A stretch of 64,000 bases of DNA. Origin: Muricea muricata. Its lineage: Eukaryota > Cnidaria > Anthozoa > Malacalcyonacea > Plexauridae. Made by a program: the position numbers and the translations under genes. Where the stretch lies: the NCBI GenBank assembly GCA_963855995.1, contig OY979717.1, forward strand, positions 11,528,001 through 11,592,000, given 5' to 3'. Below are positions 12,238 through 18,563 of the stretch, piece after piece. Under the pieces are notes generated by a model. It made no database searches and was not told the origin of the DNA. It worked only from the letters and a program-made list of their open reading frames with translations. Every line of letters begins with the position of its first letter. Within the stretch, counting starts at the first letter, position 1.

Positions 12238-15200
12238 ATGCTGTTGAAATATAAAACTTCATTTTTCCAGTTGCTCAAAACAAATATTCTGTTTATTCTA
12301 CTAATTTTGGGAGTGATTCTGGGCTTTCTCGCTGGATTTTTCTGCAATGACTCCGTTCAAAAATCAACGGACCCAACTTCAAAAGAGTTGGCCATGTTCA
12401 TTTCATTTCCTGGTGAACTTTTTCTTAGAATGTTGCGCCTTCTAATCCTACCATTTGTTGTCTCAAGTGTCATTACCTCACTAGCTACTCTGGATAAAAA
12501 GTCTGCAGCAAAACTTGGAAAAGTAGCATTCATCTGTTTTTTGGCAACGACTTTTGTCGCAGTCATTATTGCTGTAATTATTGCCACCGCTTTCTTAAAA
12601 CCGACAGTTGATGAAAGTCACGAGCTGGAAGAAATCAATAGATCTAGTGCTCTTCACAGCATTTTGGATATGTTGAGGTAGTTTTACACAAATGTTGATC
12701 TTTGATATAAAACCTTAATATTACAATCATAATATTAACCATTTTTTGTTCAAAACTTTATTTCAGAAACATGATTCCTGATAATATTGTTGAGGCTAGC
12801 TTTTCATCGGTACGTAAGTTATTACCTCTTACATCATCTAATATTTTGTACATCTAATATTTTTCTTAAAGTCACTTTTAGCTCTTAACTAAGAGTTAAC
12901 AGTACCCGACAGTGTTGTATTACTTATTTACACTATTAGTATTAAACACATGCATTAATTACTACATTTACTATAATCATTCGTGTATGGCATGTAACAA
13001 ACTATGTAATGTGACTAATTGTAATCTTTATTTCTTTCAGACTTCTACAAAACATAAAAGCATTCCAACAGCATATGTATTCGAGAACAAATCAACTGAT
13101 GATTTGAAATCGTCGGCTAAAAATATGTCCACATTTCTGAAGAACGAAGTAGTTAACATATTGAGCATATCAGGTGACAACGTTCAAGTGATCAAAGGAC
13201 AAGATGTCATTTTCGAGTATGATGGTCAAGAGAAATATAATTCTGGAAACATTTTGGGAGTTCTTACACTTTCGGTTGTATGTGGCGTAATTTTGCATTC
13301 TCTTGGAGAAAAAGGAAAACCTATTGTTTCTTGGTTTGATTGCTTGTTTAACGTCATACTAAAAATGGTGGACTTATTTATGTGGTGAGTATTTTAGCGG
13401 GCTGTAAAAGCTAGTGCATTCTGTTGCGATAATCTTTAATCATGATCTCCAATCTCATTTATCATATGAAACAACATGATTGTGTTTGACCACGGAATAA
13501 AATGTACGCGCGTATACCAACTTTTCACGTAGACTGTACGCTATTTTTCTCACAGTGATATTTTCTCTAAAATAATTAAGAGTTATTTGAATATTTTGTC
13601 TGCAGGTATATGTACCACAAAATACCTCGGTACCACAGAATACCAGTCGTATTTATTTTCAGTATAAAATTTGGGAGAAGCGTGCAAAATATTTTATTCT
13701 CGTAAATATATATTAATTTTGGTGTTAATTGACACATAAATAAAAAAATGAATATTTTAATAAAAATTCTTAAAAGTAACGAGGATAACGTTGTTTTTGA
13801 TACCTCTTTTTTGCTAAATGCTCGTAAAATCAGGAGGTTTGAAAATAAGTTGGCAAACCAACATAAATTATGTTCATAGACATTTGTACTAAGCGATACA
13901 ACATTCCTGCCATTCAAGAATAACAGGGAGCAATCAAATTTGCTATGAAAGAACACGATCTTTCAACATTATTGATAAACCTGATATATTGTAGTATATC
14001 ATGGGTATTATGTAGTGACTTTAGTATTAACATACCACTAAATTAGATAGCAATATCTATACAGTATTACCATACTGCATCAAAGACCAAATCCTGGTTC
14101 AATTTGATAAACCGTTACTTATTTATTGCTACACTGGTATTCTGTGGTACATTAGGATTTTATCCAAATAGTGTCAGACTTCAAAAATACTAGAATTTGC
14201 TAAATCTAACCGCAAGACCCCACAGGAAGAAAAACTACAGGGAAAACCTTTCCAAAAAACCAATAATAGTCCATGATATATACTTGTGGCATAAAATATG
14301 AATGATAGAAAATTGTGTGGTATTCTGTGGTACATACACCTGTAACTATGAAAATTTATCCCCTTACAAAAGGTTTTCACCCATTGGCATCGGCAGTATT
14401 GTTGCTGGTGAATTGGTTGCGATGAAAAATATTAATGGTCAAGTTTCAAGTCTTGGTATATACATTGCAATGGTGGTTATCATATCTCTGATTCACTCTT
14501 TGGTTGTGCTACCAGTAATATATTTCATGATTTTGAGAAGAAATCCTTTCCTTCTGCTTAGTCGAGTAGCCAAGGCGTTACTTACAGCCTTTGGAACGGC
14601 GTCAAGGTGAGAATAAATATATATATATCAATATCTATCACATTAGCAGTAGCGAAGCCAGCTAAACAATTTGGTCATGTTATGCAAATTTAAACAATTG
14701 AATCTGATTCTTTATACGGTCCATAAACACTGCATGAGAAATTGCATTTGCATGACCAAATGTCGGGCTGACTTTGACAATGCACACTATTAGCATCTAT
14801 ATGTCCATATTTAATACATGATCTTCATTCACTGTACAAAATCCATACACGCGATTGGCAAAACTCAATTACGCGTGTTTTTGTTACCTGTCAAGAATGT
14901 GTCTTGAGTGCAGTTAGAGACTGTCAACGGCGGCCTCGTGCAGTATAGAAAATTTTTCGTTCATTGTACAATCAGCTCGTGCGTTATTAGTAAAAAAAAT
15001 CGTGACAGTCTCTTACTCTTAAATATCACATTTAGTAACAATTTATGTAGTATTAAACTAAAATCATCATTAAACTCTTATTTCAGTTCTGCGTGCATAC
15101 CTATTACATTGAACTGCCTTGAAAGGAACCACAAGGTTGATTCCCGTGTGACTCAATTTGTTCTCCCAATTGGAACGACCGTAAATAAAGATGGTACTGC

Positions 15201-18200: not shown

Positions 18201-18563
18201 CATGCAACGCCCAAATCTCTGATAGTGATTATGGTACAATTTCTGGAACATCGATTCAACTTTTATTCTTTATAACTTTCATTTAGGGATCGTATAACAA
18301 CTCCCACAAATGTCTGGGCATGCTGTGTTGCCTGTACAGTCGTGGAACACTTATCACGTAACCAGCTTGAACCTACTGACGATTTAAATAGCACAAGTGG
18401 TACCGCATGTTTGGATGTCTCATCAAACACAAACAGCGTAGCTATCGATATAATTGAAGAAGGTGAAAGCATGGAAGATAAACAAGACATGAAAAACATT
18501 ACAAATATTTCTATTTCTGTTAGGAAGATAAAAGAATCACAAGGCATAGAAAACATTCCTTAG
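12238..18563 (+). CDS. SLC1-family transporter, divergent paralogue (gene A), 7 coding exons
   Basis: Proposed exons: 12238-12677, 12767-12809, 13041-13384, 14373-14606, 15087-15284, 17926-18063, 18287-18563. All introns are GT-AG and the frame stays open for about 557 codons. Family landmarks: TM2 region [22 protein letters not shown], two sequons in exon 3, [12 protein letters not shown], the HP1 tip GTASSSA, and DRITTPTNV in TM8. Membrane transport is known for the family, but key residues differ: NMDGT is NKDGT (K388), the following Glu is I395, the TM8 Arg is T470, the Na1-site Asp is C478, and the HP2 tip GAAGIPxAG is replaced by [10 protein letters not shown]470 recalls the neutral transporter ASCT1. 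The start at 12238 is an assumption: an in-frame acceptor (tttttccag before 12271) could join an unseen 5' exon. It is tail to tail with gene B. Confidence 0.85.
13603..14342. mobile_element. MITE filling intron 3 of gene A
   Basis: The left end CAGGTATATGTACCACAAAA is mirrored at 14311-14342 by tgtggtacatacacctg. A second internal pair uses the same GGTACCACAGAATACCAG motif (13629 and about 14130). The right end lies only about 30 bases from the exon 4 acceptor, so the element supplies most of the intron. It has no coding capacity. Confidence 0.7.
14649..14775. repeat. MITE-like element, family 1 copy b, in intron 4 of gene A
   Basis: It begins GTAGCGAAGCCAGC. Its reverse complement matches 3206-3357 across tcatgcaaatgca and tttatggaccgtataaagaa. 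The right terminus is degraded. Confidence 0.55.
15441..15755. repeat. (TA)n microsatellite, about 315 bp
   Basis: Almost pure TA with a few TG and AA interruptions. It directly abuts the 3' end of the minus-strand Penelope-like copy. The Tyr-Ile repeat frames read from it are artefacts. Confidence 0.95.
15848..15908 (-). ncRNA. Hammerhead-ribozyme-like motif in Penelope tail (HHR1)
   Basis: Read on the minus strand: stem I ATTGTAAA plus ATTT pairs with AAAT and TTTACAAT. The core CTGAAGA is followed by stem II GGAGG, loop AACA, CCTCC. The core GAAA comes next, then a minimal stem III (C, loop TTGAA, G) and the cleavage triplet GTA before stem I closes. The 10.1-11.1 pair is C-A instead of G-C. 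It lies downstream of the GIY-YIG frame, where Penelope-like elements are known to carry hammerheads. Confidence 0.7.
16020..16960 (-). pseudogene. Penelope-like RT C-terminus and GIY-YIG endonuclease
   Basis: The uninterrupted part (16778-16020, 252 codons) has the RT-tail motifs [34 protein letters not shown] and [15 protein letters not shown] Cys-rich insert follows ([16 protein letters not shown]), then the nuclease: IIYQATV (GIY position), ETYIGLT (YIG), [14 protein letters not shown] (catalytic Arg) and a C-terminal [12 protein letters not shown]. Upstream codons (16948-16779, [20 protein letters not shown]) are in a shifted frame. The enzyme reverse-transcribes its RNA at a nick made by its own nuclease. 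The catalytic RT palm is absent through 5' truncation. Confidence 0.85.
16982..17090. repeat. (TA)n microsatellite, about 110 bp
   Basis: Pure TA tract separating the 5'-truncated Penelope copy from the palindrome at 17096-17336. Confidence 0.95.
17127..17190 (-). ncRNA. Hammerhead-ribozyme-like motif, left palindrome arm (HHR2)
   Basis: Same design as HHR3 but on the minus strand: CTGAAGA at 17180-17174, a 9-bp stem II with loop TAA, CGAAAC, a short stem III and GTA. Stem I uses GGGCTATTTGT against ATGAATATGCC, with a bulge. Confidence 0.75.
17239..17303 (+). ncRNA. Hammerhead-ribozyme-like motif, right palindrome arm (HHR3)
   Basis: CTGAAGA (17250-17256), then stem II GTGCTATAC, loop TAA, GTGTAGTAC (all nine pairs form, two of them wobbles, starting with the canonical G-C), then GAAA (17278-17281). 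Minimal stem III is C, TAAATA, G, with cleavage triplet GTA at 17289-17291. Stem I AGGC-TATTTGT pairs with ATGAATA-T-GCCT through a one-base bulge. It is the best-formed hammerhead in the window. Confidence 0.8.
17337..17554. mobile_element. Penelope-like tail fragments
   Basis: Two copies of the tail string ATTGAGCACT occur (about 17349 and 17513), the second about 40 bases before the next (TA)n tract. A degraded hammerhead-like 3' half (minus strand GATGAAACAGACTGTAGTGG) lies at about 17447-17466. Confidence 0.5.
17555..17698. repeat. (TA)n microsatellite, about 140 bp
   Basis: Pure TA tract after a short TATG-rich lead-in. Confidence 0.95.
17699..17890. mobile_element. Penelope-like pseudo-LTR remnant beside exon 6 of gene A
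   Basis: Contains gacgtttcggctatagcctt, the complement of a GGCTATAGCC hairpin followed by GAAACGTC. This resembles a degraded hammerhead 3' half typical of Penelope tails. It ends about 35 bases before the exon 6 acceptor at 17925. Confidence 0.45.

Follow-up and report, generated by a model that had tools for sequence, protein, structure and literature searches.

In the SLC1 carrier GltTk, the sulphur of the NMDG-loop methionine lies less than 3 Å from the sodium ion at the Na2 site (PMC5110648), and simulations describe this site as formed by carbonyls of transmembrane segment (TM) 7a and of helical hairpin (HP) 2 together with the methionine sulphur, the ion neutralizing a negative potential ahead of elevator movement and translocation (PMC4618328). 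The M311A replacement renders the Na+ dependence of aspartate binding less steep, and in one structure the opening of HP2 hinges on glycines 351 and 357 (PMC4051121). At the R397 position of TM8, ASCT1 has a threonine (T459) and ASCT2 a cysteine, both proteins being Na+-dependent exchangers, and replacing the corresponding arginine of EAAT1 by threonine or cysteine abolishes concentrative acidic uptake and confers neutral exchange (PMC5750217). The EAAT residue E374 carries the proton, and E374Q abolishes K+ coupling (PMC10160106). Here we describe gene A of the cnidarian Muricea muricata, an SLC1 gene at positions 12238-18563 of the plus strand of a window of 64,000 nucleotides (C2:11528001-11592000, on contig OY979717.1, here C2; the genome comprises 453 Mb in 74 contigs), in which the NMDG methionine is replaced by a lysine, K388.

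Gene models were built with a spliced protein-to-DNA alignment script run on stretches located by matches to the SLC1/SDF family PF00375. Gene A encodes 557 amino acids in seven exons without an in-frame stop, and its six introns are all GT-AG, with the phases 2,0,2,2,2,2 that are common to the seven other intact paralogues of this genome. The protein matches PF00375 at 307.3 bits (cut-off 27.9) over positions 2-386 of the 387 in the profile, its closest solved structures are EAAT1 and EAAT2 chains, and it retains the SLC1 hallmarks of an N-x-D-G loop (N387, D389 and G390, with methionine changed to lysine) and the HP1 serines S353 and S354. An earlier note on this DNA, made from the letters alone, had listed K388, I395, T470, C478 and an HP2 tip reading AAAPITGSV in an otherwise intact scaffold with intact splice sites and frame, and the rebuilt gene model reproduces all of these with the same numbering. 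Sequencing error was rejected in view of a difference at 55% of the aligned positions from gene B, the sister paralogue, of the six conserved introns and of the spread of the changed residues over three separate exons. Alternative canonical exons were sought and set aside, as no further SDF match is listed between the exons of gene A or downstream to gene B. In the family search of the genome, each of the other seven intact genes has its HP2 exon listed. As the short TM8 exons are mostly missed by the genome searches, a motif scan was added, in which canonical HP2 and TM8 motifs were absent from positions 12238-26000 of the plus strand of the window and the same patterns detected both motifs in gene B.

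Position names follow GltPh numbering. The comparison panel consisted of nine sequences, namely the seven other intact paralogues, an engineered EAAT1 chain (PDB 5llu) and EAAT2 (PDB 7xr4). In all nine, the K388 column is methionine and the C478 column is aspartate. The loss of the glutamate and of the arginine is not peculiar to gene A: the paralogues D, F, G and K have Tyr, Phe or Asp in place of the glutamate, and in D and G a Gln stands for the arginine. The departures of gene A exceed what chance would give: of the 82 columns that are invariant across the nine-member panel it alters 25 (26 of 84 with an eight-member panel), as against 0 to 11 of 82 to 93 columns when every panel member is scored in the same way without gene A. 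The changes in gene A are M311 to lysine, R397 to threonine, D405 to cysteine, the EAAT glutamate at 318 to isoleucine and Y89, which we take to serve the Na3 site through its backbone, to phenylalanine. In HP2, the hinge glycine 351 has become alanine, G354 proline and P356 threonine, and one residue is inserted relative to all 17 other aligned sequences. Kept are the HP1 serines, G306, T308, N310, D312, T314, Y317, S349, D394, T398, N401 and T92/T93; in the numbering of gene A itself, the alpha-amino-acid ligands D467, T471 and N474, along with the HP1 serines, and the Na3 side chains T104, T105, N387 and D389 are all present.

Gene A thus shares with the EAATs (SLC1A1-3, 6 and 7) the family fold as judged by sequence, HP1, Na3 and the backbone ligands, and its sister gene B is EAAT-like, but it lacks the TM8 arginine (T470), the proton/K+ glutamate (I395) and the Na1 aspartate (C478), has lysine for the Na2 methionine and has a rebuilt HP2 tip. 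With ASCT1 (SLC1A4) it shares the threonine at the R397 position (PMC5750217), one of the two residues, Thr or Cys, that mark ASCT proteins there; the NMDG motif and the Na1 aspartate expected of an ASCT are replaced by K388 and C478. The ASCT2 chains compared likewise have no acid at the E374 position, but they keep NMDG and the Na1 aspartate, and gene A groups with gene B, a paralogue from the same genome, in trees that contained no ASCT. The signature described for the H+-coupled prokaryotic type, Ext-H (hydrophobic 92, L311 and N405; PMC12668577) is absent as well, the corresponding residues of gene A being T104, K388 and C478.

Based on this pattern, we propose, as a tentative reading that falls somewhat short of probable, that the product of gene A is an elevator-type SLC1 carrier, probably working by exchange, whose substrate is a neutral (small) alpha-amino acid, whose coupling to Na+ is much reduced and in which the lysine replaces Na2. 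The neutral substrate suggested in the earlier note agrees with the identity of T470 with the ASCT1 residue and with the neutral exchange of the EAAT1 mutants (PMC5750217), and its placement of K388 where the family binds Na+ agrees with the position of the methionine that contacts Na2 through its sulphur (PMC5110648; PMC4618328). Genes A and B would descend by duplication from a common EAAT-like ancestor. The ammonium group of K388, flipped in with the NKD loop, would occupy or neutralize the carbonyl cage of the last Na+ (Na2), allowing HP2 to close without that ion; a second ion would be given up with the Na1 acid (now C478), and coupling to H+ and K+ with the glutamate (now I395). P354, together with the loss of the hinge glycine 351, may then reshape the HP2 tip around the fixed cation. 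We infer the substrate, the ion dependence and the geometry of the protein, including the cation independence that had been suggested for it, from its sequence.

The PF00375 search of the genome returned at least 45 exon-level matches, with the best candidates scored, from which eight intact SLC1 genes (A, B, C, D, F, G, H and K) were rebuilt, all with seven exons and the intron phases given above; a GC donor is found at intron 4 in genes D and F. Genes A and B are arranged tail to tail, and gene C follows beyond the edge of the window. Among the matches listed by the protein search, gene B is the closest relative of gene A in the genome, with an identity of 44.9% as against 33-42% for the other paralogues. 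In a maximum-likelihood tree the two genes are neighbours, with 94% support for their split from the remainder, and they also pair (0.97) in a FastTree phylogeny from which the key columns were left out. The branch of gene A is the longest in the maximum-likelihood tree (0.92 vs 0.34 for gene B). The paralogues D, F, G and K, which depart from the EAAT residues, are found at C2:47949000-48063900, C3:44.79 Mb and C15:11.08 Mb (L011-L020, L023, L024 and L027-L031). Two further SLC1 loci look broken: locus E (C2:47980368-47995783; L028 and L013) has an in-frame stop and, within the examined stretch, lacks a recognizable first exon, and from locus M (C1:117506093-117507810; L025) the middle exons alone were recovered.

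The sequences indicate that lysine at the NMDG methionine has arisen independently in this animal gene and in bacteria, which is new here. None of the papers listed by a literature search on SLC1 glutamate transporters contains NKDG, which is weak evidence of absence because subscription papers lay outside its scope, and neither M311K nor K311 occurs in the main text of PMC12668577. The pattern P.G...NKDG[TS]..Y was scanned against one genome per species for 84,980 prokaryote species; as it requires N310 and the tyrosine, it undercounts lysine cases, and locus L258, described below, fell outside it. The scan gave 89 stretches, four of them with a stop in the match, and among the remaining 85 open reading frames (ORFs) nine were SDF family members at E below 1e-68, all belonging to one clade; L056 (E 0.0014) was set aside as a short chance match. 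Of the nine genomes of this clade, eight belong to Ignavibacteria and the ninth is a Bacteroidetes assembly (loci L045, L060, L099, L049, L032, L120, L116, L093 and L064; e.g., G001:C136:449-1588 and 5070-6200). An NMDG member of the family is present as well in every one of these genomes; in eight it shares a contig with the lysine gene, at a distance of no more than about 5 kb, and in the remaining one the two genes are on different contigs. Since the nine NMDG copies already have the motifs GTT and TAPVP, A307T and G354P most simply preceded the lysine in this clade, to which the NKDG copies add G351A, P356A and D394N.

The Ignavibacteria-type NKDG genes resemble gene A in lysine for methionine, T307, A351, P354 and the loss of P356, but differ in keeping R397 and D405, in having N394 and in the NMDG copy held by their genomes. 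At position 398 the NKDG copies have S, A or T. In the mosquito SLC1 protein CuqDCT, a dicarboxylate carrier, Asn and Ala are found at the EAAT3 positions D444 and T448 (PMC3737229), and it is on this partial resemblance that we predict a non-amino dicarboxylate as the substrate of the NKDG copies. Another bacterial lysine was found in Pseudomonadota (L258/L272; G405:C1:1971409-1972590), where a GKDGT loop is combined with N310G, N401S and D405N, and G351 and P356 are kept; several Na+ ligands have been lost there together with the lysine. Among 289 genomes of the class to which L258 belongs, nine gave strong matches to L258, and no lysine copy was found in the other eight, so that the lysine may be private to L258. 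L215, a remote SDF-like ORF that has a lysine in this column and likewise P354, was set aside, as it lacks an NxDG loop and cannot be aligned safely in that region.

The HP2 changes were compared in a wider sample of 141 distinct prokaryote sequences (one more was dropped for gaps), drawn from the best loci, at most 30, of each search and leaning to strong matches. Sequences with methionine (n = 95) have both G351 and P356 in 88 cases, one of the two changed in seven and both changed in none. Among those with leucine (n = 23), P356 is changed in 10 and G351 in five, never both, and for all sequences without lysine (n = 130) the counts are 18 for P356, eight for G351 and zero for both. The double change is present in all nine members of the Ignavibacteria-type clade (A351 and A356) and in gene A. 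P354 is found in all 11 lysine sequences, i.e., the nine-member clade, L258 and L215, vs 14 of the 95 methionine sequences, and in eight of 124 sequences once loci recruited via the lysine are excluded. G354P and A307T were rejected as lysine-specific in bacteria, for both are already present in the NMDG copies that accompany the nine lysine genes. In the FastTree phylogeny, the Ignavibacteria-type clade is nested inside P354 methionine sequences (0.999, then 0.994), and L258 pairs with a P354 methionine sequence having an SMDG loop (1.0). Parsimony gives four gains of lysine, L215 included, three of which, including both secure bacterial ones, fall on lineages that already had P354; such lineages account for 12% of the tree length, a share that is inflated by the NMDG copies sampled along with the nine lysine genomes. 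The three secure independent lysines all accompany P354, an association in a limited sample and not proof of mechanism.

From these results it is possible, and we offer the idea with reserve, that SLC1 carriers can leave Na+ coupling by a second route, reached convergently, in which a lysine in the NMD loop serves as a tethered replacement for Na2 and becomes possible only once P354 is in place, gene A being the animal case, in which Na1 and acidic recognition have been lost as well to give a Na+-independent neutral exchanger. Several results weigh against the interpretation of gene A and its extension to bacteria. The Na3 side chains are retained in gene A, so Na+ may still bind. Its invariant binding-site columns are changed in three of 16 cases vs 22 of 66 elsewhere (Fisher p 0.37), with no enrichment at ligands, which suggests that the acceleration is general. 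The proline and the lysine of gene A map to one and the same branch. Loss of P356 or of G351 alone was rejected as lysine-specific, given the frequencies above, and L258 keeps both residues. In the Ignavibacteria-type clade, D405 and R397 together with N394 suggest that the substrate and the remaining ions differ from those of gene A.

Among the alternatives, K388 might replace the lost TM8 arginine and bind the side-chain carboxylate of a substrate that is still acidic, with any replacement of Na2 being secondary. The structure of an uncoupled ancestor, in which the methionine side chain points into the pocket and contacts the bound aspartate (PMC12668577), would suit such a relocation of charge, as would the balance of one positive charge lost by R397T and one gained by M311K. 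The lysine is not a general stand-in for the arginine, however, as the bacterial lysine cases keep R397 too, and the arginine change alone yields neutral exchange in EAAT1 (PMC5750217), so that we consider this explanation unlikely.

Equally doubtful is a non-transporting protein, such as a regulatory partner, a receptor or an anion channel, in which folding and trimer formation have been maintained and the ion-coupled cycle abandoned. The loss of several coupling residues, the HP2 insertion and the length of the branch would fit this reading, but 13 of the 16 invariant ligand columns are kept, including those for the amino-acid backbone and the Na3 side chains, which would be superfluous in a pure scaffold.

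An ASCT-like neutral exchanger that is still coupled to Na+, tolerating K388 and binding one or two ions via Na3 and a shifted Na1, would accord with the retained Na3 side chains and with the Na+ dependence of ASCT1 and ASCT2 (PMC5750217). It is improbable given that the two ASCT2 chains compared keep NMDG and the Na1 GD, of which gene A has neither, and that the lysine recurs together with HP2 remodelling.

The earlier note had also argued for selection on a changed function and not simple decay. Between genes A and B, the proportion of synonymous differences (pS) is 0.755, which is saturated, vs a nonsynonymous proportion (pN) of 0.335, and this combination points to purifying selection through most of the history of gene A, during which its protein thus appears to have been constrained. 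A pairwise dN/dS is useless as a number here, the Nei-Gojobori (NG86) dS being infinite or above 1.9 in 27 of 28 paralogue pairs. Neutral change was instead simulated by introducing random mutations into the coding sequence of gene B and stopping once 25 of the 82 columns had changed. Over 300 runs this needed 0.17 substitutions per site and produced 8.9 stops on average (minimum two), with no run free of stops, which argues that the protein is not the product of neutral drift alone. By 0.041 substitutions per site a first stop was present in 95% of the runs, and a copy that had lost its function less than about 0.041 neutral substitutions per site ago could still have an open frame; the argument for selection accordingly holds for the long term and is compatible with a recent loss. 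A once functional copy that has recently lost its constraint could draw on the 25 altered columns, on the broken appearance of loci E and M and on the 5% of runs still without a stop at that limit, but is very unlikely, the limit being about four times too short for the changes seen and the lysine with HP2 changes recurring in bacteria.

Viewed beside other systems, the carrier proposed for gene A, a neutral exchanger with Na2 replaced by lysine, has partial counterparts. CuqDCT is likewise a lineage-specific SLC1 duplicate with changed TM8 specificity, but it has changed D444 and T448 and keeps the arginine, whereas gene A keeps the D444 and T448 positions and has changed the arginine, the methionine and the Na1 aspartate (PMC3737229). 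For the uncoupled prokaryotic transporters Anc-Int and Ext-Int, residues of the Na+ sites are reported to have been lost after Na+ independence was reached, and all Na+ residues are retained in just 16% of the Ext-Int sequences, but the route described there is allosteric (PMC12668577). In the LeuT fold, the Na+-independent amino-acid carriers BasC (K154) and ApcT (K158) have a lysine at the Na2 position, as is proposed for K388 of gene A, fold and mechanism being unrelated (PMC6472337). The features of gene A and its sister are listed in Table 1.

Table 1. Positions of gene A, its diagnostic codons and gene B in the window.
Feature	Position	Strand	Remarks
Gene A exon 1	12238..12677	+	Start codon; TM1-TM3; Na3-site T104/T105 kept; Y101F
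Gene A exon 2	12767..12809	+	
Gene A exon 3	13041..13384	+	
Gene A exon 4	14373..14606	+	3' end within HP1; S353 kept
Gene A exon 5	15087..15284	+	HP1 tip, TM7
K388 codon (AAA)	15187..15189	+	NMDG methionine position (GltPh M311, EAAT3 M367)
I395 codon	15208..15210	+	EAAT3 E374 position, proton/K+ coupling Glu
Gene A exon 6	17926..18063	+	HP2
HP2 tip AAAPITGSV, residues 429-437	17951..17977	+	G351A, G354P, P356T and one inserted residue
Gene A exon 7	18287..18563	+	TM8, C-terminal tail, stop TAG included
T470 codon	18297..18299	+	GltPh R397 position
C478 codon	18321..18323	+	GltPh D405 (Na1) position
Gene B	26015..50540	-	Intact sister paralogue with canonical EAAT residues, seven exons; last coding exon 26015-26210 without stop; reference

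Other features of the window include very long AT dinucleotide runs in intron 5 of gene A (15285-17925), which also contains a minus-strand ORF of 263 codons (16020-16811) with the appearance of a mobile element. In a Pfam scan of nine ORFs around gene A, this ORF gave no family above the cut-off; we take it to resemble the GIY-YIG part of a Penelope-like element. Transposase pieces at 8327-8737 (minus strand) and 37425-37790 (plus strand) were assigned by Pfam to DDE_3 and a Tc3-type helix-turn-helix.

The coupling of SLC1 proteins to Na+ is central to the understanding of glutamate uptake. Nature here offers a set of experiments on it, comprising a protein in which lysine replaces the methionine, an intact relative next to it and independent bacterial cases. 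Both secure bacterial cases suggest an ordering rule in which the HP2 proline comes first and the lysine second. If the lysine does replace the ion, dependence on Na2 would have been lost in these proteins while gating by HP2 was retained.

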